Under the pieces are notes generated by a model. That model ran no database searches. It worked only from the letters and a program-made list of their open reading frames with translations, and had not been told where the DNA came from. A DNA stretch of 64,000 nt, taken from Candidatus Scalindua sp. SCAELEC01 (GTDB lineage Bacteria; Planctomycetota; Brocadiia; Brocadiales; Scalinduaceae). Positions within the stretch are counted from its first letter, which is position 1. Each line of letters opens with the position of its first letter. Position numbers and translations under genes: made by a program. The stretch spans positions 124,001-188,000 of the forward strand of contig SHMT01000001.1 of assembly GCA_004282745.1 (NCBI GenBank), written 5' to 3'. Positions 14,854-38,072 of the stretch are shown here, in pieces.

Positions 14854-14861
14854 ACGAGATT

Positions 14862-16793: not shown

Positions 16794-16801
16794 TATCTCA
16801 T

Positions 16802-18124
16802 ATGGGCCAATTTGCTACCTATTCATTTAATACCACGGTATCCCAGTTTGCTATTCTTGCCCTCTCTCTGGGAACATCGATAATTACGGCAAGGTGTCTT
16901 GGTCCTGAAGGGAAAGGGGAGTTGACACTGTTACTCTTGATACCCCTTTTTGCTACCACCTTTGGTAGGCTTGGTCTTGGACATGCAACGAACTACTATG
17001 CATCGAGGACATCCCCTACGAGACTTATCGTAAATTGTCTCATCCTCTCGCTGATCTTAAGCATAGGTGTTACTGCGGTTTGTGTACCCACCATCTACCT
17101 CCTAAGAGAGACCTTCTTTAAGACCATAAACGTAAGACTTTTAATGACAATCTCTTTTATTACCCCATTTTATATATTGAATTACCATTTCATCTGTATC
17201 ATTCAGGGACTCTACAAGATCAACCTCATGAATGTCCTCTTTGTTGTTCAATCAGGTGTAAACCTGGCACTTCTGATTGCACTGTTGATTGTAAAGGATT
17301 ATGGCCTAAACGGGGCTGTGATAGCGGCTATTTCGGCACTTCTTATTTCAGTTTTGGTACGGGCAGGCTTTCTCTTAAAGGAGATTGAGACAAGCGAAAT
17401 TAGGGTGGACGGTGATGTTATTAGAGGTTTACTGAGTTTTGGTTTAAAGTCACATGTGGGCAATATCCTGAAGGACATTACGTACAGGGGTGATATTTTG
17501 TTGATAAGTTATTTTCTTAACCCGGCTACGGTAGGTTTATACATTGTCGCTATGCATGTAGCCGAGGTAATATGGAAGATTCCTGAGTCGGTGGGGAGCG
17601 TGCTGTTGCCGAGGGTCTCACAGATGGAGATGGAAGAGGCGCGGAGGTTTACGCCAATTGTATGCAAGCTTGTGGTGTTACCTGTCTTAATAACGTGTAT
17701 ACTCCTCTTTTTGTTTGGAAAGATCCTCATCACGTTTGCCTTTGGTCACGCATTCTTACCTTCAGCCACTGTCTTGCTGATTTTGCTGCCGGGTATTTTC
17801 TTTTTTGCGGTATGGAAAATTATTGCGAACGCTCTGATTGCGCAAGGGCATCCTTCAAAATACAGTGTAACATCGGGAGTCTCTTTGGTAACGATGTTGC
17901 TTTTTGACATTATCCTGATCCCCCGCTATGGTATACAAGGTGCGGCCCTGGCTTCAACACTCTCATATACATTGGCAACTTTTACGATCATATTTATCTA
18001 TACGAGGCTTACGGATAGCCTGATTACGGAGATGTTTCTCCCTGTGAGGGCTGATTTTTTTTATTACAAGGATTTTTTTAAGTCATTGGGGGGGAAACTT
18101 TTTGGTATTACCTCAGGACGATAA
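16802..18124 (+). CDS. Wzx-like polysaccharide flippase (MOP superfamily)
   Basis: 440 residues, about 12 membrane helices along the whole chain. The N-terminus (TARCLGPEGKGELTLL near 30-45) and the repeating ALxxLLL helix pattern are typical of polysaccharide-exporting MATE-like flippases, which move undecaprenyl-linked oligosaccharides over the inner membrane. ATG 16802 lies 8 nt after the transketolase stop, so it is probably in the same transcript. This is the only Wzx-like protein in the window; a Wzy-type polymerase was not identified with certainty, though several polytopic proteins at 50-56 kb could fill that role. Confidence 0.85.
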   Translation: MGQFATYSFNTTVSQFAILALSLGTSIITARCLGPEGKGELTLLLLIPLFATTFGRLGLGHATNYYASRTSPTRLIVNCLILSLILSIGVTAVCVPTIYLLRETFFKTINVRLLMTISFITPFYILNYHFICIIQGLYKINLMNVLFVVQSGVNLALLIALLIVKDYGLNGAVIAAISALLISVLVRAGFLLKEIETSEIRVDGDVIRGLLSFGLKSHVGNILKDITYRGDILLISYFLNPATVGLYIVAMHVAEVIWKIPESVGSVLLPRVSQMEMEEARRFTPIVCKLVVLPVLITCILLFLFGKILITFAFGHAFLPSATVLLILLPGIFFFAVWKIIANALIAQGHPSKYSVTSGVSLVTMLLFDIILIPRYGIQGAALASTLSYTLATFTIIFIYTRLTDSLITEMFLPVRADFFYYKDFFKSLGGKLFGITSGR

Positions 18125-18149
18125 AAACCGGTATGAGAACTCTCCTAAA

Positions 18150-18797
18150 ATGAGCGACTGGAAAACCTATTTTGAAAAAAGCGATAGAAACATCTTTAAA
18201 CAGTGCCTTTCCGCCAGACGTCTGATTGAGATAATAATCGATACCATACCCAAGGGGGGAAGAGTGTTAGAAGCTGGATGTGGTACCGCTCTCCTTTCAT
18301 TGCTGCTGGCAGATTATGGATATGACGTTACGGCGCTCGATCTGACAGACGGAATAATAGATTATGCGAAAAAGAGGATCTGTGTTGACAAGGTTAAACT
18401 CAATATTATACGGGGAGACATCTTCAAACTCTCATCTCTTTTTGAGGAGCGTTATTTCGACGTGGTTTGTAATAGCGGCGTAATGGAACATTTTTCAGAT
18501 GAGGAGATTGTGAGGGGCCTTGCAGAACAGAAAAAGGTATCAAAGATGGTTATCTTCAATGTTCCCAATAATCACAATGTACTTACGGAAGGACATTTTG
18601 GTGATGAGCGGTTCCTGAGCAACAAGAAGTGGGTGTCGTTGATAAAAAATGCCGGTTTTAAGAGCGTTAACGTATATGGGGGGTATTATGTAACAAGACC
18701 TGCATATTTACTACCGAGCATTGTATTTAAACACGGGTTTTATTTTGATTTTTTGTGGAAGTGCTTTAGTCGGCACTCTGTTTTTGTCTGTGAGTAG
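18150..18797 (+). CDS. Class I SAM-dependent methyltransferase
   Basis: 215 residues. Motif I is VLEAGCGTALLS, followed by the acidic VTALDLTDG end of strand 2 and the CNSGVMEHF block typical of small-molecule methyltransferases. Cytosolic. The open frame can start at TTG 18102 within the flippase gene, but ATG 18150 gives a normal N-terminus and needs no overlap. The acceptor is likely a sugar in the glycan (inference from context). The stop codon TAG (18795-18797) is the first triplet of palindromic repeat copy C. Confidence 0.8.
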   Translation: MSDWKTYFEKSDRNIFKQCLSARRLIEIIIDTIPKGGRVLEAGCGTALLSLLLADYGYDVTALDLTDGIIDYAKKRICVDKVKLNIIRGDIFKLSSLFEERYFDVVCNSGVMEHFSDEEIVRGLAEQKKVSKMVIFNVPNNHNVLTEGHFGDERFLSNKKWVSLIKNAGFKSVNVYGGYYVTRPAYLLPSIVFKHGFYFDFLWKCFSRHSVFVCE

Positions 18798-19053
18798 TGT
18801 TTGAACGAAAACTACCCATCTCCTGCGTTGCTGTATACTAAAACCGATTTGGTTTTCGGCTTTACCGGAAACCAAATCTTGGTGAAGGTATCCCCGGACG
18901 CCGAGGACTTTACTCGCTCAGTTTTTTTCGGATTTTATCCGAAAACCATTATGAGATGAGTATAAAAATTGCCTAATCCTCACGTACTTGAGTACGCTCC
19001 GGTTCCGCAATTATTACGCGCCTTGTACCTGGGCACTTTTCGTTCAAACATTA
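18795..19053 (+). repeat. Palindromic repeat copy C carrying a nested insertion
   Basis: The outer arms TAGTGTTTGAACGAAAACTA and GCACTTTTCGTTCAAACA, the CTGCGTTGCTG block and the CTCACGTACTTGAGTACGCT core are all present, but the copy is about 130 bp longer than copy B. The extra DNA (18834-18964) sits between the GTTGCTG block and the inner stem. The left end provides the stop codon of the upstream methyltransferase, and the right end lies just before the ribosome binding site region of the NeuA-type gene. Confidence 0.85.
18834..18964 (+). mobile_element. Nested hairpin-rich insertion inside repeat copy C
   Basis: About 131 bp absent from the other copies. It begins TATACT and ends AGTATA, a short inverted terminus. 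It holds two hairpins: GATTTGGTTT pairing with AAACCAAATC (about 18846-18878), and TTTTCGGAT (18925-18933) pairing with ATCCGAAAA (18937-18945) around a TTT loop. No reading frame of note. This looks like a second non-autonomous element that landed in the first; no other copy of it was seen in this window. Confidence 0.6.
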
Positions 19054-19107
19054 AGTAGGTTGTATCTCATTTTTTTTTCTGGCTCGGCCAGATGGGAGGA
19101 TATACTT

Positions 19108-19803
19108 TTGGAAATTTTAGCACTCATACCTGCGCGGGCCGGTTCGAAGAGGGTGAAAGACAAAAATGTCTCTCTCCTGGGGGGGAAACCCTTAATCGCG
19201 TATACGGTTGAAGCGGCCCTGGCTTCCAAGCTGATAAGTAGGGTTGTTGTGAGCACCGACAGCAAACAGATAGCTAACATTTCAAAGGAGTGTGGTGCTG
19301 AGGCCCCCTTTATCCGACCTGAAAGTATTTCACAGGATGACTCGACAGAGATGGACTTCTTTGAACATGCACTAGAATGGTTCAGGGATCATGAAGGGTA
19401 TGTACCGGACCTGATTGTCCAACTTTACCCAACATCACCTTTTCGTAAGGCAGAGACCATAGACAAGGCCATTAAAGAGATACAAAGGTATCCGGATGCC
19501 CACTCCCTCAGGTCCGTAACCTTATGCAAGGAGCACCCTTATAAGATGTGGGTAATTGAAAATTCCCAATTGAAACCGTTTGTAAAGGGGAAAGATCGTA
19601 ATACACACACACGTTCTTACCACCTGTTGCCAACAGTGTATATTCAAAATGCAAGTATATACATTACGAAACCCTCTACTATTAAAAACACAGGGACTCC
19701 TATCGGCGATATTGTCATTCCCTTTCCTATGGGTGAACGGGAGTCTATTGATATTAATACGCACTTAGACCTTCAATTTGCAGAGATGGTATTGACAGAG
19801 TGA
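19108..19803 (+). CDS. neuA: CMP-nonulosonate cytidylyltransferase (NeuA-type)
   Basis: 231 residues, the normal length. The N-terminal ILALIPARAGSKRVKDKN is the CTP-binding signature of acylneuraminate cytidylyltransferases, followed by VVVSTDSKQIA, LYPTSPFR and the C-terminal IDINTHLDL metal-site block. It activates the NeuB product as a CMP sugar in the cytosol. GGGAGGA at 19094-19100 lies 7 nt before TTG 19108, and the protein then starts directly at the conserved strand; the longer frame to 18988 runs into repeat sequence and is not real. A TTG start with a strong ribosome binding site is therefore called. The stop overlaps the next gene in TGATG. Confidence 0.9.
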   Translation: MEILALIPARAGSKRVKDKNVSLLGGKPLIAYTVEAALASKLISRVVVSTDSKQIANISKECGAEAPFIRPESISQDDSTEMDFFEHALEWFRDHEGYVPDLIVQLYPTSPFRKAETIDKAIKEIQRYPDAHSLRSVTLCKEHPYKMWVIENSQLKPFVKGKDRNTHTRSYHLLPTVYIQNASIYITKPSTIKNTGTPIGDIVIPFPMGERESIDINTHLDLQFAEMVLTE

Positions 19804-23814: not shown

Positions 23815-23843
23815 TTGACAGGAGAAAAAATATTTCATACTAT
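23815..23843 (+). promoter_or_regulatory. Strong sigma70-type promoter candidate
   Basis: A perfect TTGACA (23815-23820), a 17-nt spacer and TACTAT (23838-23843, five of six matches to TATAAT) lie 52 nt before the start of the deoxyhypusine-synthase-like gene. It is the best promoter match I found in the window and would drive the gene set from 23.9 kb onward. It lies in a 269-nt gap that otherwise holds nothing I recognise. Confidence 0.55.
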
Positions 23844-23894: not shown

Positions 23895-24908
23895 TTGCCA
23901 GCATTTGACCGAAACAAACTGTGTCTCAAATCCTTGTCTGAGAGGAAACACGACCTGACCGTTTCAGTTATCAAAGAGTTAGCTACTCCTTCCGCTTCTC
24001 CACTTGACAAAGAAATATACTCGGTTGCCAAAGGTATATGTTGTGCAAAGAAGAAGTCGCGTTCTACAATTATGTTAATGGGGGGGCACGTTATAAGGTC
24101 AGGAGTTCAAAAGTACATAATTGATTTGATGGAAAGGGGCTATATCTCCTGTTTAGCTATGAATGGGGCGGGGATTATCCACGATTTTGAGCTTGCCCTG
24201 ATTGGTGCCACAACAGAGAGTGTAGCTCGCTATATCAAGGATGGTCAGTTTGGTTTGTGGAAAGAAACTGCAAGATTAAACGATATTATTAATGAATCAT
24301 ACAGAAAAGACAAAAGTGTTGGAATGGGAGAATCTGTTGGTCGTGCTATTTCTCTAGGGGATTTCCCTTGTAAAGAGATTAGTTTGTTAGCGGCAGGTCA
24401 CCGATTATCTATACCCATCACGGTACATGTCGGCATTGGATATGATATAATTCACGAATATCCAAATTGTGACGGTGCTGCGACAGGGGCGACTTCATTT
24501 AATGATTTTTTAACTTTTGCACATAGTGTCCAGAATCTTGAGAATGGAGTTGTTATGAATTTTGGCAGTGCTGTAATGGCACCCGAAGTTTTTTTAAAGG
24601 CACTCAGTATGGCGAGAAACATTGCGCATCAGGAAAAGAGGGATATTAAGCATTTTACTACGCTCGTGTGCGATCTGCTTGAATTACCGGGTGGTTTTCA
24701 TAAAGAACCTGTAAGGGACAATCCTGCATATTACTTCAGGCCATGGAAAACCATGCTTGTCAGAACAGTAGCCGATGGTGGACAAAGTTATTACATAAAG
24801 GGGAAGCACTCAGAGACAATTCCAGCGCTTTGGAATGCGATAAATGGAGAAGAGAGCTCAGAAGAACTCTCTGGCTCGCGAGAAAGGTGTTTCAGTGAAG
24901 GTTCTTAA
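23895..24908 (+). CDS. Deoxyhypusine-synthase-like protein
   Basis: 337 residues, cytosolic. Blocks MLMGGHVIRSGVQKYIIDL, MNGAGIIHDFELALIG, SIPITVHVGIGYDIIH and NFGSAVMAPEVFLKAL belong to a bacterial family distantly like deoxyhypusine synthase, an NAD-dependent fold. Bacterial members have no eIF5A substrate, and their reaction is not established. The family is often found beside RfaE-like sugar kinase/nucleotidyltransferase genes, as here. TTG 23895 is the called start: the protein then begins FDRNKLCLKSLSERKHDL, a complete family-type N-terminus. It overlaps the next gene by 14 nt, implying translational coupling. A good promoter lies upstream. Confidence 0.7.
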   Translation: MPAFDRNKLCLKSLSERKHDLTVSVIKELATPSASPLDKEIYSVAKGICCAKKKSRSTIMLMGGHVIRSGVQKYIIDLMERGYISCLAMNGAGIIHDFELALIGATTESVARYIKDGQFGLWKETARLNDIINESYRKDKSVGMGESVGRAISLGDFPCKEISLLAAGHRLSIPITVHVGIGYDIIHEYPNCDGAATGATSFNDFLTFAHSVQNLENGVVMNFGSAVMAPEVFLKALSMARNIAHQEKRDIKHFTTLVCDLLELPGGFHKEPVRDNPAYYFRPWKTMLVRTVADGGQSYYIKGKHSETIPALWNAINGEESSEELSGSRERCFSEGS

Positions 24909-25371
24909 TTTTGATGCATTAGAACAGAAAATCCGCACTTTGAAAAATGAAGGGAAAAGGATTGTTCTCTGTCATGGATGTTTTGATCTTATGCATCCGG
25001 GACACATAAAACATTTTCAGTCGGCTAAAAAGATGGGGGATGTCCTCGTTATCACTCTTACACCTGATGTATATGTTGACAAGGGGCCGGATAGGCCGGT
25101 CTTTAGCCAAGATTTGCGGGCAGATTCTATTGCGGCTTTAGAGTGTGTTGATTACGTGGCTGTCAATAAATGGCCGACAGCAGAAAACACCTTGAAATTA
25201 TTACACCCCGATATATATGTTAAGGGACAGGAGTTTGAGAATTTGCAGGATAAAACGGGAAAGATTCAAAAGGAGTACACTTTAACGCAAGAATTAGGAA
25301 TTGAAATAAAGTTTACTCAGGATATAGTTTTTTCATCAACAAAACTCTTAAACCAGCATTTTATCAAATAG
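24895..25371 (+). CDS. RfaE/HldE C-domain-like nucleotidyltransferase
   Basis: 158 residues, a single cytidylyltransferase-like domain. The HxGH motif is intact (HGCFDLMHPGHIKHF), and the closing FSSTKLL corresponds to the ISSTxI motif of nucleotidyltransferases. Known relatives add AMP or CMP to heptose- or other sugar-1-phosphates or to polyol phosphates. GTG 24895 with AAAGG 7 nt upstream (24883-24887) is chosen over the longer frame from ATG 24844, because the protein then starts with the normal first strand. It overlaps the upstream gene by 14 nt and is 7 nt from the kinase fusion gene, so the three form a tight unit. Confidence 0.8.
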   Translation: MKVLNFDALEQKIRTLKNEGKRIVLCHGCFDLMHPGHIKHFQSAKKMGDVLVITLTPDVYVDKGPDRPVFSQDLRADSIAALECVDYVAVNKWPTAENTLKLLHPDIYVKGQEFENLQDKTGKIQKEYTLTQELGIEIKFTQDIVFSSTKLLNQHFIK

Positions 25372-25378
25372 GTTACCC

Positions 25379-26920
25379 ATGATCAACAAGCGAATGGAAA
25401 GTAAGATATTGCTGTTTGACAAACTCATTGAGAAGGTCGAAAATCTCAAAAAGCAGGGTAAAGTTGTCGTTCAAACTCACGGAGTCTTCGACCTTATTCA
25501 TCCAGGAATAATCAAACATATTAATTTATCAAAGAGCGAAGGTGACGTGTTGATTGTTACCGTTATCAAGGACAAAGATGTGCGAAGAGGGCCTGGAAGG
25601 CCCATATTTCCAGAGGATTATAGAGCTGCGAATGTTGCTGCCCTTGAACAGGTCGACTACGCTTGCCTGGTCGACGATGAGACACCTTTTGAATGCATAC
25701 AGAGGATAAAGCCCGATGTGTTTTCAAAGGGGAAGTCATATAAGAGGAGGGCTCAGGACCGTGAGGTTTTCGAAAAAACTCTTGATGAGGAGAAAAAATA
25801 TTTTTTTGGTCAAGGACGGATTTGCGAAACGGACGGAGTAACCTTTAGTTCTTCACAGATTATCAATAATTTTCTTGATGTGTATCCTGAGGAGACCAGG
25901 GAATTTGTACACGACTTCTCTAAGAAATATAGTTTCGATTATATTCAGGAGAAAGTGGATGAGTTGGGAAAGATGAAAATCCTACTTCTTGGAGATGGCA
26001 TAATAGATGAATATCATTATGTCGCAACTATGGGTAAGTCTGCAAAGGCAAATCTTGTTGTAAATAAATATTTAACCCATGAGATCTTTGCAGGGGGTGT
26101 ATTTGCGATTGCCAATCATATAGCTGGTCTCTGTGAAGAGGTGCAACTGGTAACCGTACTGGGTAGGGAAGATACAAGAAAAGATTTCATACTAAACAGC
26201 TTAAAACCAAATATCAAGTCTCAGTTCTTTTATAGGGACGATGGTCCAACCATTGTTAAGAAGAGGTATATTCACTCTTATCTGAACCAGAAGTTATTTG
26301 AAATCAATTATCTGGAGGATGCTTTCATTAATGATAGTATTGAGAAGGAGATCATGGATTATCTTGAGGCTGAAATACAAAATTATGATTTAGTTCTGAT
26401 ATCAGATTTCGGGCATGGATTTATAACGGAAAAAATATTCAGTATTATTGAAAAGCATTCAAAGACATTTGGTATTAACACACAGACTAACGGGGCCAAC
26501 GTTGGCTACAATCTCATCACAAAATATCACAATCCAAACTATGTCTGTTTAGATGAGCTTGAAATTAGGTTGGCTGCGCAGCAAAGGTTTGCTGATATTG
26601 AAGAGGTGATAAAGAAAATCTCAGTGTCCATAAATTCTGATTATCTAATTGCTACTCTTGGTAAGGGCGGTTCAATAGGCATTAATAGAAAAGGTGAAAC
26701 AAATAGAACGCCAATATTTTCATCAAAGGTGATTGATACAGTAGGTGCCGGAGATGCATTTTTTGCCTATACAGCTCCCTGCTTTGCAATTGGCCATCCT
26801 CTGGATCTTGTCTCATTCATCGGAAATGCAGTTGGGGCCCTCGCAGTTCAGATTGTAGGGAACAAGAAGTCTGTGGAAAAGCATGAGCTCCTAGATTTTG
26901 TGCACGCAATTTTGCAATAG
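25379..26920 (+). CDS. Nucleotidyltransferase-like / PfkB-kinase fusion in reversed HldE order
   Basis: 513 residues. Residues about 15-165 form a cytidylyltransferase-like domain; residues about 195-513 are a PfkB/ribokinase-type sugar kinase with AGGVFAIANHIAGL, VTVLGRED and the catalytic DTVGAGDAFFAY. Ordinary HldE has the kinase first and the transferase last, so the order here is reversed. In the transferase domain the HxGH motif reads HPGI, with the second catalytic histidine replaced by Ile, while the partner gene 24895 keeps HPGH. The domain may therefore be inactive or regulatory and the small partner may do the transfer (inference). Product likely a phosphorylated heptose-like or other sugar. 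Ends a three-gene unit before a 165-nt gap. Confidence 0.8.
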   Translation: MINKRMESKILLFDKLIEKVENLKKQGKVVVQTHGVFDLIHPGIIKHINLSKSEGDVLIVTVIKDKDVRRGPGRPIFPEDYRAANVAALEQVDYACLVDDETPFECIQRIKPDVFSKGKSYKRRAQDREVFEKTLDEEKKYFFGQGRICETDGVTFSSSQIINNFLDVYPEETREFVHDFSKKYSFDYIQEKVDELGKMKILLLGDGIIDEYHYVATMGKSAKANLVVNKYLTHEIFAGGVFAIANHIAGLCEEVQLVTVLGREDTRKDFILNSLKPNIKSQFFYRDDGPTIVKKRYIHSYLNQKLFEINYLEDAFINDSIEKEIMDYLEAEIQNYDLVLISDFGHGFITEKIFSIIEKHSKTFGINTQTNGANVGYNLITKYHNPNYVCLDELEIRLAAQQRFADIEEVIKKISVSINSDYLIATLGKGGSIGINRKGETNRTPIFSSKVIDTVGAGDAFFAYTAPCFAIGHPLDLVSFIGNAVGALAVQIVGNKKSVEKHELLDFVHAILQ

Positions 26921-27085
26921 TTTATTTATTTCTTCTGATTTTCAAGTGTACATTGTTGCTAAATAGCTAATTCAAAAAAGTTGTGTAATAATGTGCTAAA
27001 TTTTGTATACTTACGGTTATCTTTCGAGATGTAGGCAGATCTATATTCCGGCATACTAGTATGAACCTCCTCTGATGGTAATAAT

Positions 27086-28153
27086 ATGGATAAGTATAGA
27101 ATAGATAGTCACAAACTTATTTATCATACGTCACGGGTAAATGAATGGTTAAATGGGGAAAATATCTACCCGATCTATATGGAAATTAGTCCTGTAGGTT
27201 TTTGTAACCATCGCTGCTCCTTTTGCGCCCTGGATTTTATGAAATATAAGAAAAGATATCTCGACACTCACATTCTCCTTGAAAGGCTTTCAGAACTGGC
27301 TACCCTCGGAATTAAGAGCGTCATGTATGCCGGGGAGGGTGAGCCTTTACTGCATGAAGACATTATCGATATAATTAATCACACAAAAAAGGTCGGCATT
27401 GATGTCGCATTAACGACGAATGGGGTGAAATTGTCAGAGAGTTTTGCAAAATCCACGTTAGATAATATTTCATGGATAAAGGTGAGTATTAATGCTGGAA
27501 CGAGGGACACCTATGCAAAAATCCATCGCTGTCGACCCGATGATTTTGATAAAGTAATAGAAAACATGTCTCGCGCGTCAAAGATAAAGAGGGAAAATGG
27601 TTATTCTTGCACATTAGGCATGCAGCTTTTGTTACTACCTGAGAACCAGCATGAAATAGTACTCTTGGCTGAAAGAGCCAGAGATATAGGGATGAATTAT
27701 TTAGTTATAAAACCCTATTCTCAGCATCTGTTCAGTGATACGGATAAATACCGCGATATAAAATATCGTGACTATACACACCTTGCGAAAACACTCTCTT
27801 CGCTTACTACGAAAGAGTTTCATGTAATCTTTCGTATAAACACAATGGAGAAATGGGATAATGGCGAACGCAGTTATGAAAATTGCCAAGCGCTTCCTTT
27901 TTGGTCTTACATAGATGCGGGAGGAGGCGTGTGGGGCTGTAGTGCCTATCTTGGCGATGAAAGGTTTCTTTACGATAATGTTAACGAACGTTCTTTCCGT
28001 GAAATCTGGGAAGGAGAAAAAAGGGCGAAATCTCTGCAATGGGTACAGGACAAACTCGATGTCTCCGAATGTAGGGTAAATTGTCGCATGGATGAAGTCA
28101 ACCGCTATTTATGGGAACTGAAACACCCTTTGGATCACGTGAATTTTATATAA
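27086..28153 (+). CDS. Radical SAM/SPASM-like protein (paralogue 1)
   Basis: 355 residues. The cluster motif is C40-x3-C44-x2-C47 (GFCNHRCSFC); MYAGEGEPLL is the GGE-like SAM-contact block. Near the C-terminus come further cysteines: ENCQAL, GCSAY and CRVNC, a SPASM/twitch-like auxiliary cluster site. The first 35 residues (KLIYHTSRVNEWLNGENIYP) and the last five (HVNFI) are shared with the paralogue at 30405. The conserved ends suggest a common partner or substrate. Substrate unknown; neighbours are a split transketolase, a GT2 and a sugar-kinase unit, so a sugar or polyol is likely (inference). It starts after a 165-nt gap, so may have its own promoter. Confidence 0.8.
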   Translation: MDKYRIDSHKLIYHTSRVNEWLNGENIYPIYMEISPVGFCNHRCSFCALDFMKYKKRYLDTHILLERLSELATLGIKSVMYAGEGEPLLHEDIIDIINHTKKVGIDVALTTNGVKLSESFAKSTLDNISWIKVSINAGTRDTYAKIHRCRPDDFDKVIENMSRASKIKRENGYSCTLGMQLLLLPENQHEIVLLAERARDIGMNYLVIKPYSQHLFSDTDKYRDIKYRDYTHLAKTLSSLTTKEFHVIFRINTMEKWDNGERSYENCQALPFWSYIDAGGGVWGCSAYLGDERFLYDNVNERSFREIWEGEKRAKSLQWVQDKLDVSECRVNCRMDEVNRYLWELKHPLDHVNFI

Positions 28154-28161
28154 AACAGGTT

Positions 28162-28959
28162 ATGGACAAGAGCGAGGTATTAAAGAATAAGGCGAAGGCT
28201 ATCAGAAATGAAGTCATAAGGATTACGACTCGTAATAAAGCCGGTCACATTGCACCTTCTTTATCGTGTTTAGATATTCTTGTGGCGCTCTATTATGATG
28301 TCATGTCTTATAGGCCGGAAAATTCAGTGTGGAAAGGGCGCGATAGATTGATCTTTTCAAAGGCACATGGTTGTTACGCTCTTTATGCAATTCTTTCAGA
28401 CAAAGGGGTTATGCCGAAAAAGGAGTGGGAAAATTTTTATAAAGAAGAGAGCTCTTTGCTGGGATGTATGGAACGAAAATTAGAATACGGACTTGAAGCG
28501 GGATGTGGCTCGCTTGGTCACGGTTTGCCGATTGCGGTTGGTGTTGCTTTTGGAGCACTGATAAAAGGGAGTCATTATCACACATATTGTGTTGTTGGAG
28601 ACGGGGAGTTGCAGGAGGGTTCTGCGTGGGAGGCTTTGCAGTTTGCAGTTAAACATGGAGTACATAACCTGACTGTTATTATTGACCGCAACAAACTGCA
28701 GGCAATGGATTTCATTGTGAATGTTCTTGATAGAGACGAGGATGCTCTGGTGAAGAAACTGGAAGGTTTTGGTCTTACACCGGTTGCTTGTCCTGGACAT
28801 GATGTGGTTCAATTGGTAGAGTGTATGAAAGAGATCAGATTGTCCATAACGAATATGCCTAAAGTTATTGTTGCCGATACCGTAAAAGGTCTCGGTATGA
28901 AGTGCATGGAAAATGTTCCAAAATTTCATTTCCGAATTCCCGTTTGCAGCCAAATGTGA
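28162..28959 (+). CDS. Transketolase N-terminal (ThDP-binding) subunit
   Basis: 265 residues, the normal size of the first half of a two-subunit transketolase. The ThDP site has GDGELQEGSAWE and the closing N in IIDRNKLQ. It ends with the usual KFHFRIP helix start. The frame could begin at ATG 28111 inside the upstream gene, but ATG 28162 gives the normal NKAKAIRNEVIR start; neither has a strong ribosome binding site. The partner subunit, starting at 29037, lacks the usual C-terminal domain. This is the second ThDP system of the glycan region, separate from the full-length one at 14862. Confidence 0.85.
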   Translation: MDKSEVLKNKAKAIRNEVIRITTRNKAGHIAPSLSCLDILVALYYDVMSYRPENSVWKGRDRLIFSKAHGCYALYAILSDKGVMPKKEWENFYKEESSLLGCMERKLEYGLEAGCGSLGHGLPIAVGVAFGALIKGSHYHTYCVVGDGELQEGSAWEALQFAVKHGVHNLTVIIDRNKLQAMDFIVNVLDRDEDALVKKLEGFGLTPVACPGHDVVQLVECMKEIRLSITNMPKVIVADTVKGLGMKCMENVPKFHFRIPVCSQM

Positions 28960-29036
28960 GGTTTGATAGTTTTTGCATTGCTGTTAGTGGGCACGTACTA
29001 TGATATGGAGACTAAGAGTAGAGTAATAGAGGGGCT

Positions 29037-29525
29037 ATGAGCACGATAAACTATAGAAGTGAGATAATAAAAAGCCTTGTTCCCTATTTCCGTGAAGATG
29101 AGAGATATTGCCTTCTGGTATGTGATATGGGCTTTGGTGTTATAGACCAACTAAAAAATGAGTTTCCCAATCGGATCATTAACTGTGGTATTATGGAGCA
29201 GGGAACAGTTGGAATAGCCGCCGGTATGAGTATGAGCGGATTAATACCGATTGTGTATTCAATTGTAAACTTTCTGGTTTTTCGAGCACTGGAGCAGATA
29301 CGAAACGATATTGTCCTTCAGAATCTTAATGTAAAGCTCATTGGTACCGGAGCAAATGATTATTTCAAATTCCTTGGTCCATCCCATTGTTGTAACCAAG
29401 ACGATATTACTATCATGGAGTTGATTCATATGAATGTGTATGATCCATACGCAGAGGAGAAACCATTTAAGAAACTTGTTGATGAGTGGATTCGTGATAG
29501 CGGACCGGGATACATGAGAGTGTAG
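29037..29525 (+). CDS. Transketolase pyrimidine-binding domain protein (short second subunit)
   Basis: 162 residues, against about 300 for a normal transketolase second subunit. It covers the pyrimidine-binding domain (CDMGFGVIDQL, then NCGIMEQGTVGIAAGM, with the glutamate that activates ThDP) and stops cleanly at PGYMRV, where the C-terminal domain would begin. The following 80 nt show no continuation in another frame. The catalytic glutamate is kept, so an active two-chain enzyme without the C-terminal domain is possible; loss of the domain by truncation is the alternative. GAGGGG (29029-29034) lies just before ATG 29037. The 77-nt gap after its partner is larger than for the other pairs here. 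Confidence 0.75.
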   Translation: MSTINYRSEIIKSLVPYFREDERYCLLVCDMGFGVIDQLKNEFPNRIINCGIMEQGTVGIAAGMSMSGLIPIVYSIVNFLVFRALEQIRNDIVLQNLNVKLIGTGANDYFKFLGPSHCCNQDDITIMELIHMNVYDPYAEEKPFKKLVDEWIRDSGPGYMRV

Positions 29526-29604
29526 AGAAACAGGGTTTCTGGAGTAGATAATCTGTTTTGAGATTGTATGGCTGAGTAAAAAATTCTAAAAAGGAAAAAG
29601 GATT

Positions 29605-30408
29605 TTGGTAGAGAAAATGGAGAACAAACCTGAACAGGGTATAAATATTAGCGTTATCATGCCGGCCCTCAATGAAGAGAGGAACATATCGGATGCTATT
29701 AAGAACACATTGAGTTCCTTTTTCGCTTTTAATATTAATGGTGAAGTTGTTGTTGTGAACGATGGAAGTTGCGACCAGACAGGAGCAATAGTGAATGAGC
29801 TCATGAGGGAAAATTCTCAGGTTCGAATGTTGGAGCACGTAACACCGCAAGGTATCGGAGCTTCTTTTTGGGATGGGGTAGATAGTGCTAAGGGGGATAT
29901 CGTTGTGCTACTTCCCGGAGATAATGAAAACGACCCCATGGAGATATTTCGATACTGCAAAATGCTTGAACATGTAGATATTGTCATTCCTTTTGTTTTT
30001 AATCGAGAAGTGAGATCATTTTTTCGTAATTTGTTGTCCTATGTCTATATTTTTATAATCAACACAACATTTTTGGTAAATTTAAACTATACAAATGGTA
30101 CGGTTCTGTATCGTAAGGTAGTTTTGAAGAAATTGAAGTACAGGAGCAGCAGCTTTTTCTTCCAGACGGATATCTTAATACGACTTCTCAAGAGGAATTA
30201 TCTGTTTGCCGAGGTTCCTTATAAACTTGAACAGAGAGGACATGGAAAATCCAAGGCAACTTCTTTCCCCTCCTTGCTTCAGGTTATAAAGGGGTATCTT
30301 CAGTTAGTAAGGGACTTTTATTTTACCAAAAAAGGGAATTCGCTGACTGCATTTCCGAGAGAATCTTTGACATTTCTCAGAAGACGGAGGAAAATTGATA
30401 CAAAATGA
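29605..30408 (+). CDS. GT2-family glycosyltransferase (polyprenyl-phosphate sugar type)
   Basis: 267 residues. ISVIMPALNEERNIS and VVVVNDGSCDQT are the nucleotide-sugar-binding start of family 2. The normal DxD site is replaced by LLPGDNENDP, a variant common in this subgroup of cytosolic dolichyl-phosphate-mannose-synthase-like enzymes. A hydrophobic stretch near 135-160 (SYVYIFIINTTFLVNL) may be a membrane-associated helix. It probably loads a sugar onto a lipid phosphate or lipid-linked acceptor. TTG 29605 or ATG 29617 could be the start; AAGGA at 29591-29595 suits TTG. It overlaps the next radical SAM gene by 4 nt, a coupled pair. Confidence 0.8.
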   Translation: MVEKMENKPEQGINISVIMPALNEERNISDAIKNTLSSFFAFNINGEVVVVNDGSCDQTGAIVNELMRENSQVRMLEHVTPQGIGASFWDGVDSAKGDIVVLLPGDNENDPMEIFRYCKMLEHVDIVIPFVFNREVRSFFRNLLSYVYIFIINTTFLVNLNYTNGTVLYRKVVLKKLKYRSSSFFFQTDILIRLLKRNYLFAEVPYKLEQRGHGKSKATSFPSLLQVIKGYLQLVRDFYFTKKGNSLTAFPRESLTFLRRRRKIDTK

Positions 30409-31529
30409 GTAACGCAAACCCTATTATGGATGGATTAATACTTGATGGCAGTAAATTGGCGTGGCATAAGGAGAGAGTGGATGCATGGTTAAGGGGTGAA
30501 CGAATAGCCCCTATAACAATTGATTGCGCCTTGACGAGGCGCTGTTCTTACAAGTGTACTTACTGTTATGGGATGCTTCAGGAGAATGATGAAAAGAAGA
30601 TGACGCGCGACGTTATATTCAGATTCCTTGATGACGCTGCTGATATTGATGTTAAGGCTATTAGCTTTGTGAGTGATGGAGAAAGTACCTGCAGTCCTCA
30701 TCTATACGATGCTATTTTGAGGGGGAAATCCAACGGTCTTGATATGGCATTGGGGACCAACGGTTATTTATTAAAAGATGAGCGCCTAGAGGATATCTTA
30801 CCCGCTCTGACTTACCTGAGATTTAATATTTCTGCTGGAGAACCGGAACGATATGCTCAGATAATGGGATGTCAAGAGAAACACTATTTGAAGGTGATTA
30901 ATACCGTTAAAGAATCTGTCAGCATAAAGAAAAGGTGTAATCTTGATGTGACCATTGGACTGCAAATGGTTTTGTTGCCGGATTTTGTAGACCAAATTAT
31001 TCCGTTGACCAAGTTGGGTAAAGAACTCGGGGTTGATTATCTCGTCATAAAACATTGTAGTGACGATGAAACAGGAAGCCTTGGTGTCGATTATAGCAAA
31101 TACCATGAGCTCGTTGAGATATTAAAAGAGGCTGAAGCATTCTCAGATGACGAGTATCTGGTCAAGGCGAAATGGTCAAAAATATTAAGTGACGGGAAGC
31201 GAAAATATTCGAGCTGTTACGGTCCAGCATTTATTATGCAGTTATCAGGTTCAGGTTTGGTTGCCCCGTGTGGAATGCTCTTTAACAGCCAATACAAGAA
31301 ATACCATATAGGAAATATAGTTGACACATCATTTAAGGAATTGTGGCGGGGAGATCGATACTGGGAGGTGATTAACCAGATTGCGTCAAACGAATTTGAC
31401 GCGAGAACGATGTGTGGGACCTTGTGTTTACAGCATAAGGTTAATGAAAATCTCTGGGAGTTGAAAAAGGAATGCAGTATAATTGAAATTCCAGATTCTC
31501 TCTCCCCTCAGCATGTAAATTTTATATGA
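30405..31529 (+). CDS. Radical SAM/SPASM-like protein (paralogue 2)
   Basis: 374 residues. Cluster motif C47-x3-C51-x2-C54 (RRCSYKCTYC), SAM-contact block FVSDGEST, and C-terminal cysteines in SSCYGP, PCGMLF, TMCGTLC for an auxiliary cluster. The N-terminal KLAWHKERVDAWLRGERIAP closely resembles the paralogue at 27086, and the last five residues are the same HVNFI. Sequence between the ends has diverged, so the two enzymes probably act on related but different substrates or consecutive steps. Its start overlaps the GT2 stop by 4 nt. The gene is the last of this group; a 414-nt gap follows. Confidence 0.8.
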   Translation: MSNANPIMDGLILDGSKLAWHKERVDAWLRGERIAPITIDCALTRRCSYKCTYCYGMLQENDEKKMTRDVIFRFLDDAADIDVKAISFVSDGESTCSPHLYDAILRGKSNGLDMALGTNGYLLKDERLEDILPALTYLRFNISAGEPERYAQIMGCQEKHYLKVINTVKESVSIKKRCNLDVTIGLQMVLLPDFVDQIIPLTKLGKELGVDYLVIKHCSDDETGSLGVDYSKYHELVEILKEAEAFSDDEYLVKAKWSKILSDGKRKYSSCYGPAFIMQLSGSGLVAPCGMLFNSQYKKYHIGNIVDTSFKELWRGDRYWEVINQIASNEFDARTMCGTLCLQHKVNENLWELKKECSIIEIPDSLSPQHVNFI

Positions 31530-32506: not shown

Positions 32507-34018
32507 ATGTATGATTTAATTTTGGTATCACCAAAGAATACTCAGCTTGGACGTTTTAAACGATTTGTACCAGTAAGTGTTCCAATTGGTGTGGGAATTC
32601 TTGCCGGATTTCTCCGGAAACATGGATTCCTGGCAAGGATTTTAGACACAGATTTACTAGACATTAACCTGAGTACTCTAGAAGCAGAATTGAATCAATG
32701 CAAAAAACCGCGTATTGTAGGTGTGAGTGTAATGACGGCTAACGTGGCCAATGGATACAAGATTGCGTCACTGGTCAAATCGATTGATAAAGATGCTGTT
32801 GTAATATTTGGGGGCATTCACGCTACGGTGATGCCGGACGAGGTTCTTCAGAATGAAAATGTTGATTATGTGGTTAAAGGAGAAGCGGAACATACACTAT
32901 TGGAATTAATCAGTCAGATTAAGGCCGGTAGAATAGTAAAAGAGAAGTTGGGAAATATTGGTTTTCGTGAAGAGGGTCAAATTGTTTATACAAAAACATC
33001 CACAAAGGTGCTGGAGATTAATGATGTTCCTATGTTCCCTTATGATATGTTTGATTCTTCAAAATATAACCTCGGCTTCATCTTGACCTCTCGTGGATGT
33101 CCGTTTGATTGTATTTTCTGTAGTCAGAGGGTCATTACAAAAAGGGTATACAGATATACGGACTCTGAAAGGGTAATGGAAGAGCTGGATTACATTATAA
33201 ATAAGCTGAATCAACCAAATGTCACTTTTTTTGATGATTATTTTACCGGAGATAAAAAAAGGGTCATGGAGCTCTGCTCTATGATTCAGGAGAGGGGTTT
33301 TCACAAGAAAGCATCGTTTGGTGTGCAGACACGTGGTGACAGCATCAATAGAGAGCTGATGGTTGCCATGCGTGCAGCTAATTTTGATAGTTTAATGTTC
33401 GGGATTGAGACTGCCTCTGATAATTTAATGGAACTGATCAATAAGAAGGAAACGGTACAGGAAAATATTGATGCCGTACATCTTGCAAAAGAGATGGGTT
33501 TTACGGTGGAAGCGACTTTTATCTTTGGTTTTCCAACGGAGACCTTTGATGACCGGTTTAAGGCACTTTCCTTATCCCTTGAAATAGGAATTGACAGAGC
33601 AAGATTCAACAATGCTACTCCGTATCCAGGGACCGAAATGTACAATATGGTTAAAAATGAATTGCATGCAGAGCCCGGATGGGTTAATTTCAGCTCTGCA
33701 GGCGCTGTTACAGCCGGGATTAGGAGAAAACATCCGTTACCGTATGTTCCTGAAGGGTGTACGGTAAATGAACTGGAAGGGACAGTACTTTTAGCAAACC
33801 TATTGTTTTATCTGAATCTTTCAAATTTGAAAAAACTCTTTAATCCTCAACAAGGTGGTAGTGGTAAGTGGTTTGAGGTTCCAAAGGGAAAATTGTTTTC
33901 CCCCGGTACACTGCTTGATCTGTCGCTATTGGCGAGCACCGTACTTATACGAACATTACGCTACTTGATGACAAGCCGTAATTGTCGAAGATTCTTTCTG
34001 AAGGGTATAAGGAAATAA
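32507..34018 (+). CDS. B12-binding-domain radical SAM protein
   Basis: 503 residues. The cobalamin-binding-like domain (1-150) has VIFGGIHATVMPDEV; the radical SAM core carries C198-x3-C202-x2-C205 (RGCPFDCIFC). The TYPGTEM-like ATPYPGTEMYN block after the core is typical of BchE/HpnR-like enzymes. The last 100 residues are hydrophobic and may contact membrane lipid. GGAGGGAGA at 32492-32500, 6 nt before ATG 32507, is a very strong ribosome binding site. Substrate unknown. It resembles the protein at 1019 in architecture, and the one at 48045 more distantly. Confidence 0.85.
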   Translation: MYDLILVSPKNTQLGRFKRFVPVSVPIGVGILAGFLRKHGFLARILDTDLLDINLSTLEAELNQCKKPRIVGVSVMTANVANGYKIASLVKSIDKDAVVIFGGIHATVMPDEVLQNENVDYVVKGEAEHTLLELISQIKAGRIVKEKLGNIGFREEGQIVYTKTSTKVLEINDVPMFPYDMFDSSKYNLGFILTSRGCPFDCIFCSQRVITKRVYRYTDSERVMEELDYIINKLNQPNVTFFDDYFTGDKKRVMELCSMIQERGFHKKASFGVQTRGDSINRELMVAMRAANFDSLMFGIETASDNLMELINKKETVQENIDAVHLAKEMGFTVEATFIFGFPTETFDDRFKALSLSLEIGIDRARFNNATPYPGTEMYNMVKNELHAEPGWVNFSSAGAVTAGIRRKHPLPYVPEGCTVNELEGTVLLANLLFYLNLSNLKKLFNPQQGGSGKWFEVPKGKLFSPGTLLDLSLLASTVLIRTLRYLMTSRNCRRFFLKGIRK

Positions 34019-34070: not shown

Positions 34071-37000
34071 ATGAGAAACGCTAAAGGGAATATTGAGAGA
34101 CGCTTACAAGAACGTTCAGTTACCATAGAGATAGCGGTCGGCATTTTGGCAATTGTATTTCTCGTTTACAAAATGCGGTCTACGTTGATATTTGGTAAAA
34201 CGACATTCTGCCACGACAATATCTTATGGAATTATCCAATATTTCAATTTTTTGCTGAAAATATCATACATAACCGGTTTCCCTTCTGGAATCCCTTTAC
34301 GCATGGTGGTGAACCTTTATATCCCATCCTTGCCCAGCTCAGGCTGTGGGAACCGATCACACTGTTAACGATATATCTCGGACAATTTATCAGTAATGAT
34401 ATCGTAATCCTTTTTAATTGGAATATTATTAACAAAAGCTTGATGATGGCTTTTGGGGTATATATTGTTTTCCGCCCTATGGCTATGCATATCATTATCA
34501 GGCTCTCTTTGATACCGATTTTACTCTTTTCTTCTTTTATGGTCGTTTCCTTTCGACAGTGCGGTCTGTTTGATCAGTTTATTATGATCCCTTTTGTGGC
34601 ATTCTTCTTCCTCCGTATTGTTTACTATAAAGACTATCGCTGGTTTAATTGGTTTGCCCTTGCCGGTACCATTGGCATTAATTGGCAATCCTACTTTTTT
34701 ACCGGCACCTGGATATTTTTGCTGTTTTTCTCTGTGGGCTTTTTAATTTTTCGAAGAGATTTATTGTTTAATCTTTTTAGGTCTAAAATGGTTTGGGCAA
34801 AATTCTCGTTATTGATTGTCGTTATCTTTGCCATGGCCGCACCGAGCGTTGTACTCCTTCAGGAAAAGGACAGGTATGCATTCCCTGCGAGAATGTTAGA
34901 CAGCCCCTATGAGGGGAAGGCGCCACAGGGTGGTCCACAGCAATACGAAGGTGAAACGGTAGGCTTGGTCTCCTCCAGTTCTGGAATTAATATGCCGTAT
35001 AGTTTCATTGCTTTTACGGGCACTTTTTCAACAATTTGGGACTTCATTCAGTTTATATCTCCAGATGGGAATATGCGTATCTCATGGCCTGGCAGGAGTT
35101 GGTGGGGTAAACCATCAGAGGCGTATATGTATCTCGGTCTTTTGCCCTGGGCTATTGCGATTTTAGGTATGGTTGCAGGAAAGCACGACCTTAAGAAAAT
35201 CTGGTTGCTCGTGCTTATCGGGTTTGGGTTGTTAATGTTAGGTCCACCAGGAGGCTTACACAGGTTAATGTACTATCTCTATCCACCTATGTGGTTTGTC
35301 AGGCACACGCATTCGTTTGTATTAATTTTTATCTTTGCTTTTTTATATTTCTATGTACTGGGTTTTAATCACATTTTTTCTGCCTGGGGTGGGCCAATTT
35401 TCCATCCTAAAACAACACATGGCATACTTGACAAGTATGTTAGCGACAAAAAATATTGTATGCATTTTGCGACTATATTATTCTCCGCATGTGTAACGTT
35501 ATTAATCTCTTTGATGGCACGACTAGAATATCCTGCTTCAAACTACCTTTTTATCTTCATTCCGGTAATTGTAGCTACCGGGTGGTTCTTGAGGAAGGAT
35601 ATGGGGGAAAAGGGGTTGTATATATGCTTGTTAACAAGCCATATATTCATAGTTCTTGTTTTCACTGACAACTACTTTACATTTGTTAGATCTCTTCTAG
35701 AACTGTTACTATTCCCGCTTGCGTTGTTTGTAATTATTAAAACGCGCAAAAATCTTTCAGCGAGTGTGAAATATGTTACGACTCTTTTGCTTGTAATAAC
35801 TTTTGCTTCCTGCTTGATTGTTGACTTGATGTATCATTTTGATAAGACTTCCAGCCTTTACCTTGAAACACCCCATCCTGGATTAGTACACAATGTCAAG
35901 ACAACCCCGCAGGAACCTCTTTTACCTCAAAAGCGGTCTATTTTTCCGAAACATGAGAATCTCATGTATAACGTTCAATCTACGAGATATCTCTCTCTTA
36001 TATATCGACAACCATTCGTTTTCTCTCCCATAGTGAAAATGAGTCAGAATCAGAATTTCTATGATGCTACCCCGACCGAAGACGTTTTTGATGTATTTAA
36101 GAAACTATCATTTGAGAAATGGTCTCTTTTACCAGATGGCAGTTTTTCCCCGGAATATTTTGAGTATAGCCAAGATGGGAAGGATGGTTCCGTTGAAAGG
36201 TATATTAATCATGATGGCGTTAAGGAGTTGAAGGTGCTAGCATTGTTAAGACCTTCATCGAATGGGAACTCTACGATTAAGCACAAGACCGACAAAATAG
36301 ACGATATTAGGGGGCGCTATATCAGAGTATCAGTAACGGCAAAGAGCGAAAACATAGCGCCTGATGCTATTCAAGTAACAATGCAGGACGGAACGGGGAA
36401 GTCGATCTCAAAATTTTACCAGAACGGAGGTAATTGGGAGCACCTTGAACTCATCACCGATATTGATAAACAGGCAGAATACTTACAGTTGACCTGTACC
36501 ATAAAGTCCTTCGCCACTGCCGATGTTTTGTTTGAGTCTATAAAAATAGAGGTACTACCGCAAAATGATTCTTTTGATTATACTAATATCACTTCAAGCG
36601 AGACCGTTTTTGATGAGTACAAAAACTTCCTTTTTCATAATTATAGTGTTTCCGCTGATACCAATTATGATGAGTACAAAAAATTTACATTTGAAAAATG
36701 GGTTATGCTGCCTGACAACAATTTGTGTCCTGAACAATTTGTTTACAAACAGGATAAATCAGGTGGATCGGTTGAAAGGCACATCTTTGAAGATGAAATT
36801 GAGGGGAAGAAGGTTTGTGCTTTTGTAAGTCCCTCATCTGATGGCAATTCGCTTATCATGCACCAGACCGACCAGATAGATAATCTCAGGGGACGTTACA
36901 TTAGGGTATCAGCTATGGTAAAGAGTGACAATACAACTTCTGATGCAATACAAATTGATGTAAAGGATGGTACAGTTGAAAAAAATAATTATGGAGTATT

Positions 37001-38072
37001 TGTAAATAAAACGACCGAAGTACCAATTTTAAAATCGTATGAAAACAGCGGTACTTGGGAGTGTATTGAACTTATCAAGTTTGTTGGTAAAAAAACGCAG
37101 AATCTGATATTTACCTGTAATGTTCAATCTACTGCTACTGCCGGAGCATATTTTGATTGGGTAAAAATAGACGTCATGACCAGAATGGGCTCCGTACCTC
37201 ATGATAAGAACAACATTGCCATCGAGTTTGAAGGTGCATTAAAAAGTCGGCGGTGGAGTAGCTTCCTGCTCCCTAAAAAATATTTTGAGCTTATACACGC
37301 AGATATCCCAATCTCGTCTCTGGTTGAAATGTTTGCTATAGATAAACCGGTGTTTCAATTTAAGAAAGGATATGTCAAGGTAGAGGAGAGTGGATTTTCT
37401 GATTTTTTGAGTCAATTAGGATCGGAGAAAGCATTAAATTTGTTGGAAGAGTCTGTTATTATATTTGACGAAAAGCTTCCTCCATCACTACACAAACTAA
37501 GAATTCCAAAAGAAGAATATGCTAGAGAAAATCAGGAATTCTCTACTACAAATGTAAAGAAACTAGCGAGTCCCACTGGTGTAAAAAGAGAAAACGACTT
37601 CCAACTCTCCGTAGAACGATATGAGTATGACTCCTGCGACTTAAGGGTTTCCACGGATAATGATGGCATCCTTTACTGGGCAGATGGATATGATACTGGG
37701 TGGTGTGCCTATGTTGACGAAAAGGAAGTCCCTGTTTATAGGGCGAATAAAAATTTTAAGGCTATCGCGATCCCAAAGGGGACAAGTTCTGTTAGTTTTG
37801 TCTACGACCCTTCTCTCTTCAAAGCGGGATTAAATCTCTTTTATGGTACATTAGTGGTGTGCTTTTTATCAATGCTGGTAAGCAGAAATTACCATTGTAT
37901 GAGGAGAGGTAGGTCTCTTTTCTTATTTAAGGTAGGATACGGAGTAATTTGTGGTATGATTAAAGTCTGCTTTTTCGTAGTATTGTGCTTGTTTTTTGTG
38001 AGGAAAGGAAGATCTTCTCTAAAGAGTTATTTGTTGAGTCTTTATAAGCGAGCATCGAGTAAGATTGAATAA
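34071..38072 (+). CDS. Giant YfhO-like membrane protein with two tandem beta-rich modules
   Basis: 1333 residues. The N-terminal part (1 to about 600) has a dozen or so membrane helices and the YfhO start pattern (FCHDNILWNYP, then FPFWNPFTHGGEP). Two homologous modules follow: about 672-832 (FKKLSFEKWSLLPDG...GSVERYI...GRYIRVS) and about 863-1037 (YKKFTFEKWVMLPDN...GSVERHI...GRYIRVS). They look like jelly-roll, carbohydrate-binding-like domains on the outer face; a short partial third copy lies between them. The C-terminus returns to the YfhO pattern (DTGWCAYVDEKEVPVY, then FVYDPS) with two last helices. Probably a lipid-linked-sugar transferase or polymer-handling protein. YfhO relatives are usually 800-1000 residues, so the modules explain the extra length. 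Confidence 0.75.
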   Translation: MRNAKGNIERRLQERSVTIEIAVGILAIVFLVYKMRSTLIFGKTTFCHDNILWNYPIFQFFAENIIHNRFPFWNPFTHGGEPLYPILAQLRLWEPITLLTIYLGQFISNDIVILFNWNIINKSLMMAFGVYIVFRPMAMHIIIRLSLIPILLFSSFMVVSFRQCGLFDQFIMIPFVAFFFLRIVYYKDYRWFNWFALAGTIGINWQSYFFTGTWIFLLFFSVGFLIFRRDLLFNLFRSKMVWAKFSLLIVVIFAMAAPSVVLLQEKDRYAFPARMLDSPYEGKAPQGGPQQYEGETVGLVSSSSGINMPYSFIAFTGTFSTIWDFIQFISPDGNMRISWPGRSWWGKPSEAYMYLGLLPWAIAILGMVAGKHDLKKIWLLVLIGFGLLMLGPPGGLHRLMYYLYPPMWFVRHTHSFVLIFIFAFLYFYVLGFNHIFSAWGGPIFHPKTTHGILDKYVSDKKYCMHFATILFSACVTLLISLMARLEYPASNYLFIFIPVIVATGWFLRKDMGEKGLYICLLTSHIFIVLVFTDNYFTFVRSLLELLLFPLALFVIIKTRKNLSASVKYVTTLLLVITFASCLIVDLMYHFDKTSSLYLETPHPGLVHNVKTTPQEPLLPQKRSIFPKHENLMYNVQSTRYLSLIYRQPFVFSPIVKMSQNQNFYDATPTEDVFDVFKKLSFEKWSLLPDGSFSPEYFEYSQDGKDGSVERYINHDGVKELKVLALLRPSSNGNSTIKHKTDKIDDIRGRYIRVSVTAKSENIAPDAIQVTMQDGTGKSISKFYQNGGNWEHLELITDIDKQAEYLQLTCTIKSFATADVLFESIKIEVLPQNDSFDYTNITSSETVFDEYKNFLFHNYSVSADTNYDEYKKFTFEKWVMLPDNNLCPEQFVYKQDKSGGSVERHIFEDEIEGKKVCAFVSPSSDGNSLIMHQTDQIDNLRGRYIRVSAMVKSDNTTSDAIQIDVKDGTVEKNNYGVFVNKTTEVPILKSYENSGTWECIELIKFVGKKTQNLIFTCNVQSTATAGAYFDWVKIDVMTRMGSVPHDKNNIAIEFEGALKSRRWSSFLLPKKYFELIHADIPISSLVEMFAIDKPVFQFKKGYVKVEESGFSDFLSQLGSEKALNLLEESVIIFDEKLPPSLHKLRIPKEEYARENQEFSTTNVKKLASPTGVKRENDFQLSVERYEYDSCDLRVSTDNDGILYWADGYDTGWCAYVDEKEVPVYRANKNFKAIAIPKGTSSVSFVYDPSLFKAGLNLFYGTLVVCFLSMLVSRNYHCMRRGRSLFLFKVGYGVICGMIKVCFFVVLCLFFVRKGRSSLKSYLLSLYKRASSKIE

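Follow-up and report, generated by a model that had tools for sequence, protein, structure and literature searches.

We analysed a 64,000-nucleotide stretch of the genome of Candidatus Scalindua sp. SCAELEC01 (contig SHMT01000001.1, positions 124,001 to 188,000; hereafter the window, numbered from its first letter), in which an earlier reading made from the sequence alone had placed eight genes of a candidate pathway on one strand at 23895-31529. All eight open reading frames were confirmed there on the plus strand. The first gene (23895-24908) encodes a protein of the GSU2086 family (NCBIfam NF052581), termed DHSL here, which is assigned to the deoxyhypusine synthase (DHS)/LOR-SDH superfamily with a predicted nicotinamide adenine dinucleotide (NAD)-type fold and is proposed below to be an HldD-like epimerase. 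It is followed by a stand-alone nucleotidyltransferase resembling HldE domain II (NT, 24895-25371; CTP_transf_like, TIGR02199 101 bits) and by a reversed HldE (NTK, 25379-26920) with an N-terminal nucleotidyltransferase and a C-terminal PfkB kinase. Downstream lie a radical S-adenosylmethionine (SAM)/Twitch-type enzyme (rSAM1, 27086-28153), a split transketolase consisting of an N part that binds thiamine pyrophosphate (TPP) (TKn, 28162-28959) and a pyrimidine-binding part (TKc, 29037-29525), a family 2 glycosyltransferase of the polyprenyl-phosphate type (GT2, 29605-30408) and a second radical SAM/Twitch-type enzyme (rSAM2, 30405-31529). The eight genes are a genuine, mobile gene set, which most likely makes a rare activated seven-carbon-type surface sugar.

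Two starts were revised because of the starts of homologues and the junction sequences: NT probably begins at GTG 24895 rather than the listed ATG 24844, and TKn at ATG 28162 rather than the listed ATG 28111. Several translational overlaps had been claimed for the set; after this correction those of DHSL with NT (about 14 bp) and of GT2 with rSAM2 (4 bp, ATGA) stood, but those at the remaining junctions did not. NTK and rSAM1 are separated by 166 bp. The good promoter said to head the genes does exist as a TTGACA-17-TACTAT box at 23815-23843, ahead of DHSL, but the region held 45 promoter-like sites as compared to 29 +/- 5 in shuffles and the box is therefore weak evidence.

Public genomes were scanned with DHSL and the 20-kb neighbourhoods around family members were examined. 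The same genes were grouped at 16 distinct loci in relatives of several phyla, all of the DHSL clade, and NT or NTK accompanied the GSU2086 gene in all 16. These loci come from Planctomycetota (Brocadia), Nitrospirota, Nitrospinota, one record labelled Proteobacteria and Desulfovibrionaceae; others lie in further genomes from the window's phylum or from the second phylum sampled below (presumably Desulfobacterota), to which G303, source of the Humidesulfovibrio record L041, belongs. This recurrence places the gene clustering far beyond chance and bears out the sequence-only reading that the genes form one pathway unit; that reading would have fallen had the genes occurred together only here. 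One counterpart, L086 (genome G393, G303's phylum), holds all eight genes at 49-78% identity (DHSL 69%, NT 66%, NTK 62%, rSAM1 66%, TKn 50-55%, a short TKc 67%, GT2 49% and rSAM2 78%). Relatives of the window genes at 32507, 38135, 38729, 40355, 42123, 48045 and 49475 are present too, and with relatives of the flanking genes in the same neighbourhood a larger block is therefore common to both genomes. In the window the flanks at 32507-34018 and 40355-50248 carry B12-radical SAM, radical SAM, short-chain dehydrogenase/reductase (SDR) and methyltransferase genes. A Brocadia locus (L034) has all eight genes plus a GmhA-like isomerase, and a minimal five-gene form, DHSL-NTK-SIS-TKn-TKc, in which SIS is GmhA-like, occurs without any radical SAM gene in L036-L038. 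The GmhA-like SIS proteins of the cassettes (95 bits, cut-off 209) and their GmhB-like HAD proteins (146 bits, cut-off 178) score below the curated thresholds. Variant cassettes with a GalE/HldD-like SDR, a HAD protein and often a conserved methyltransferase of ~220 aa were seen in L040, L041, L084 and L085, the HAD protein being fused to an APH-like kinase in L040/L041 and separate in L084/L085. In a tree the GSU2086 proteins of the cassettes formed one clade with 100/100 support, and the mixture of phyla within it points to horizontal spread.

The family names given by the sequence-only reading held for NT, NTK, both radical SAM enzymes, both transketolase parts and GT2, but not for the first protein, which had been called deoxyhypusine-synthase-like. 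DHSL scored 378 bits against the GSU2086 family model (cut-off 250) and belongs to that family, with 21.7 bits against Pfam DS (cut-off 27) and 23.5 bits against TIGR00321 (cut-off 304). The DHS motif SWGK, which holds the active-site lysine, was absent from 94/94 GSU2086 sequences, and the sole invariant lysine of the family is K235. We rejected a role as deoxyhypusine or homospermidine synthase on the missed cut-offs and the absent lysine motif. An AlphaFold model of DHSL (mean predicted local distance difference test, pLDDT, 81) matched LOR/SDH, ArgZ/AgrE and DHS structures in Foldseek with probability 1.00 and a TM score of about 0.5. Alignment of the DHSL profile with bacterial DHS by hhalign gave 95.5% and E=1e-8 over the NAD half, and a PDB profile search recovered only the Rossmann segment of ArgZ/AgrE and a LOR/SDH-like protein; weak FANCM matches in that search were taken as chance. 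The modelled fold is that of NAD-using, DHS-type enzymes, with kinship to DHS at the superfamily level. DHSL has no SDR match and does not qualify as HldD-type by TIGR02197. In L083 (9459-11051) DHSL and NT are fused in one frame into a 530 aa polypeptide, a natural fusion that supports a common pathway. The window's own genome has a second GSU2086 gene of the other clade on C47 (L042 / L024).

The distribution of the GSU2086 family relative to HldD was assessed in two sets of genomes, 294 from the window's phylum and 158 from the second, with presence defined as a score above the family cut-off (NF052581 for GSU2086, TIGR02197 for HldD). In the window's phylum the GSU2086 family was present in 141/294 genomes and HldD in 74/294, and the two occurred together in 8 genomes as compared to 35.5 expected (p=1.3e-14). 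When one genome was drawn per taxonomic family the exclusion remained, with a median p=2e-4. Four families (f34, f58, f30 and f44) hold genomes of either sort, none with both and none with neither, the splits within them being 4/6, 2/4, 3/1 and 5/1. The second phylum showed the same pattern (GSU2086 99/158, HldD 35/158, both in 10 versus 21.9 expected, p=6e-6). Among 150 listed places of HldE, 52 have a GSU2086 gene and 11 an HldD gene within 4 kb, and none has the two. As with gene content, conservation, motif states and homology, this mutual exclusion with HldD is an observation.

GSU2086 genes of the other clade are found in operons for heptose synthesis. Of these, L054 reads LpxK-GSU2086-HldE-GmhA-GmhB-WaaF, the last being a heptosyltransferase; GmhA, HldE and GmhB are accounted for there and HldD is therefore the only classical step open. 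A similar lipopolysaccharide (LPS) heptose operon without GmhA was found in L080, and in 10 of the examined loci of G303's phylum the GSU2086 gene directly follows GmhA. The window's own genome encodes an HldE in normal domain order on C45, and no HldD above the TIGR02197 cut-off was found in it (best match 9.5e-31). Because of the near-exclusion with HldD, the heptose-operon context and the NAD-using fold, we tentatively propose, at a little under an even chance, that GSU2086 proteins are non-orthologous, NAD-dependent analogues of HldD with an HldD-like role.

The sugar had been predicted to be phosphorylated and nucleotide-activated. This is supported, but in the fusion protein the active site for nucleotidyl transfer is damaged. 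The stand-alone NT keeps HPGH (HxGH motif), and the NTK of the window, L032, L033, L034 and L086 has HPGI or HPGM, with the second catalytic histidine lost. Where no stand-alone NT is present (L041, L063, L084 and L085) the fusion keeps HIGH or HVGH; in the exception, L056, both proteins have an intact motif. The kinase motif GAGD (or GSGD) is intact in every cassette fusion listed, and that of the window reads GAGD. Nucleotidyl transfer and kinase work thus appear to be split between two proteins and, with the site in the fused half damaged, the small separate NT must do the former step. NTK scored 169 bits against the HldE profile, below the cut-off of 521, with reversed domain order. The window cassette contains no GmhA-like gene, and one such gene was found elsewhere in the genome (G000:C31).

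Both transketolase parts have the expected catalytic features, the TPP motif GDG...N in TKn (PF00456, 94 bits) and the catalytic glutamate in GIMEQG in TKc (PF02779, 53 bits). TKc is 162 aa long and lacks the Transketolase_C domain. Equally short forms recur in L034 (165 aa) and L086 (164 aa), which therefore indicates a conserved form, and a broken transketolase gene was rejected. In L083 and L112 the TPP enzyme beside rSAM1 is instead a dehydrogenase-E1-type pair (E1alpha/E1beta; PF00676 248-252 bits) in place of transketolase, a swap that suggests a two-carbon modification.

The two radical SAM enzymes share about 30% identity, and each has HVNFI as its C-terminal residues. CX3CX2C is invariant in their alignments, and each has four conserved auxiliary cysteines (C267-X17-C285 ... 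C329-X3-C333 in rSAM1, C271-X17-C289 ... C337-X3-C341 in rSAM2), a single-cluster, Twitch-like arrangement. SPASM domains are defined by seven auxiliary cysteines and two auxiliary clusters, and neither enzyme has these. The closest solved relatives in the PDB profile search were DesII, BlsE, MoaA and BtrN for rSAM1 and BtrN for rSAM2, and several of these act on sugars or nucleotide sugars. Orthologues of rSAM2 are rare (G000, G046, G171, G269 and G277 among the 294 genomes, G393 and G451 among the 158) and lie <=10 kb from DHSL in the window, G171 and G393; rSAM1 adjoins NTK in G393 and G343. In L112 (G422) and L113 (G328) rSAM1 lies with a two-subunit TPP enzyme and GT9- or GT2-type genes, and no GSU2086 or kinase gene was found near it. 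A short contig, L110 (G451:C157), carries rSAM2 (72%) and both small membrane proteins described below, with no GSU2086 gene. Transketolase-type and radical SAM chemistry, as had been anticipated, belongs to the pathway. We consider it somewhat probable that the radical SAM enzymes act on the sugar. That the TPP enzyme adds two carbons after a radical oxidation is plausible but conjectural; the addition itself is doubtful, a supply of sedoheptulose-7-phosphate (S7P) being about as likely.

GT2 has profile similarity to ArnC, PpgS and AglJ, and hydropathy gave no transmembrane segment. Relatives 49-61% identical adjoin the cassette in L034, L086 and L063, the last reading NTK-DHSL-GT2-YfhO-38135-like-38729-like with a 30% YfhO relative directly after GT2. 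From this gene order the window genes at 34071-39244 are most likely part of the cassette system. They encode, on the plus strand, a YfhO-type membrane protein (34071-38072; PF09586 45.6 bits), a probable acceptor-side glycosyltransferase, and two small membrane proteins (38135-38659 and 38729-39244) whose relatives in L063, L086 and L110 adjoin the cassette or rSAM2. Together these genes suggest lipid-linked transfer, and the prediction that GT2 puts the sugar on a lipid gained support, as judged from homology, from its polyprenyl-phosphate kind and its travelling with YfhO and the two small membrane proteins.

The reactions, substrates and step order of the following scheme are all ones that we infer. 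S7P or a near ketose phosphate, possibly from the split transketolase, would enter the pathway and be isomerised by a GmhA-like enzyme, borne by the cassette in relatives and here probably encoded by the G000:C31 gene. The PfkB half of 25379-26920 would phosphorylate C1, a GmhB-like phosphatase would remove a phosphate and NT (24895-25371) would nucleotidylate the sugar, the fused domain being catalytically damaged. The GSU2086-family protein may then use NAD to epimerise the nucleotide-bound heptose with no net redox change, as HldD does in E. coli. A carbon of the ring or side chain might be oxidised or deoxygenated by rSAM1 and rSAM2 in the manner of BtrN/DesII, and the keto group so formed may receive two carbons from the TPP enzyme. 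GT2 would load the sugar onto polyprenyl phosphate, from which YfhO and the small membrane proteins would pass it to a glycan or protein at the surface. That the product is a heptose-type activated sugar we consider likely. Our best explanation as a whole is a cassette for a heptose-type nucleotide sugar that also contains modules for its modification and for its transfer to lipid, with the chances for and against it evenly balanced.

Several observations weigh against this account. The Desulfovibrio-type genomes G301-G303 carry HldD plus a cassette GSU2086 protein, 26/149 listed HldE-bearing genomes have neither (several with matches below the cut-off) and a GmhA-like gene is missing within L086 as in the window. 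In the cassette's sister group a GSU2086 gene lies beside a lone PfkB kinase (L057 10439-11518, L071 10398-11561), so that the substrate could be a sugar phosphate; this arrangement is possibly a simpler pathway. Six cassettes (L032, L040, L041, L063, L084 and L085) encode an SDR epimerase relative (epi383) that could itself carry out the epimerisation, the structure model of rSAM1 was poor (pLDDT 64) and left unused, and a literature search yielded no GSU2086-family enzyme with measured activity. That search found no paper tying deoxyhypusine synthase to heptose or hldD to Planctomycetes, and a wider one on ADP-heptose epimerases found no alternative enzyme described. The sister-group arrangement, the position next to GmhA and not the last enzymes in the second phylum, and the coexistence with HldD in G303, G343 and G405 would fit GSU2086 acting at another heptose step, for example as an oxidoreductase/isomerase on a heptose phosphate, with a different heptose isomer made and hence no HldD. 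We regard this as unlikely, as GmhA, HldE and GmhB all stand beside GSU2086 in L054, leaving the HldD step, and equivalence is suggested by the families in which each genome has exactly one of the two proteins. Less probable still is that the activated compound is a non-heptose unit derived from a ketose or polyol, the wider possibility favoured earlier, with HldE- and GmhA-like folds working on a new substrate. All heptose-family scores of the cassette proteins are under the curated cut-offs and a dedicated transketolase is odd for plain S7P, but canonical operons for LPS heptose include GSU2086 genes, and in both L112 and L113 rSAM1 has heptosyltransferase-like (GT9) genes in its neighbourhood.

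The split TPP enzyme could make only S7P while the radical SAM enzymes modify a glycan elsewhere and no branched sugar is formed, which we hold to be a serious minority possibility. L036-L038, with a split transketolase and no radical SAM gene, agree with this, but S7P formation is not expected of the E1-type pair beside rSAM1 in L083 and L112, nor is a GSU2086 or kinase gene near rSAM1 in L112 and L113. It is very improbable that rSAM1 and rSAM2 serve to mature peptides or metalloenzymes and are in the cassette by chance. The tungsten-oxidoreductase maturase model TIGR04317 was the top NCBIfam match of both, but at 86-89 bits against a cut-off of 380, and the four auxiliary cysteines instead of seven and the conservation beside sugar genes in several phyla speak against it.

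In its boldest form our proposal is that the GSU2086 family is a second, unrelated nucleoside diphosphate-heptose epimerase on a deoxyhypusine-synthase fold that replaces HldD in many genomes of two phyla, and that its paralogue in the cassette helps to make a heptose, modified by radical SAM chemistry and bearing a two-carbon branch, for surface glycosylation by way of a lipid carrier; taken whole this is speculative. The functional prediction for the GSU2086 family is the most valuable part of the cassette, giving a widespread uncharacterised family of both sampled phyla a testable function. If true, it would account for the final step that LPS heptose synthesis lacks in these bacteria, possibly including Geobacter with its electrode-growth gene. 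The cassette also points to an unexplored set of radical SAM enzymes that would act on sugars and go with two-subunit TPP enzymes. A separate sugar cassette lies upstream in the window at 9431-19800 (Gfo/Idh-hexapeptide fusion, NeuB, SDR, aldehyde dehydrogenase, flippase, methyltransferase and CMP-sugar synthetase) and holds a full-length transketolase (14862-16793), unusual within a nonulosonate-type cluster.

Compared with known systems, the GSU2086 family shares a homologous NAD half with deoxyhypusine synthase but lacks SWGK and scores below the curated cut-offs. The radical SAM enzymes resemble BtrN, DesII and BlsE, their best PDB profile matches, in the radical SAM core and C-terminal auxiliary-cluster domain, but at about 30-50 bits they fall outside those families. 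The E1-type pairs AviB1/AviB2 and Pau11/Pau12 of antibiotic pathways, held to add two-carbon branches to ketosugars (PMC4425429), are likewise two-subunit TPP enzymes in a sugar cluster and are matched by the E1alpha/E1beta variant in L083 and L112, whereas the window pair is transketolase-like without the C-terminal domain. With the ADP-heptose pathway GmhA-HldE-GmhB-HldD, in which HldD is an NAD-dependent enzyme (PMC10948575), the cassette shares isomerase, C1 kinase, phosphatase and nucleotidyltransferase families and operon partners; it differs in the reversed HldE domains, the extra stand-alone nucleotidyltransferase, GSU2086 in place of HldD, a dedicated split transketolase and scores below equivalog cut-offs. 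In Geobacter sulfurreducens GSU2086 is placed between hldE (GSU2085) and gmhA (GSU2087), and insertions in each of GSU2085, GSU2086 and GSU2087 lower growth on electrodes (PMC5585712). That operon is like the window in placing the GSU2086 family beside hldE and gmhA, and is needed for electrode growth, but in its passage on these genes the study names neither a radical SAM enzyme nor a split TPP enzyme or GT2. The sequence-only reading had held the combination of families to be undescribed; its core is a heptose-type pathway, and GSU2086-hldE-gmhA can already be seen in Geobacter.

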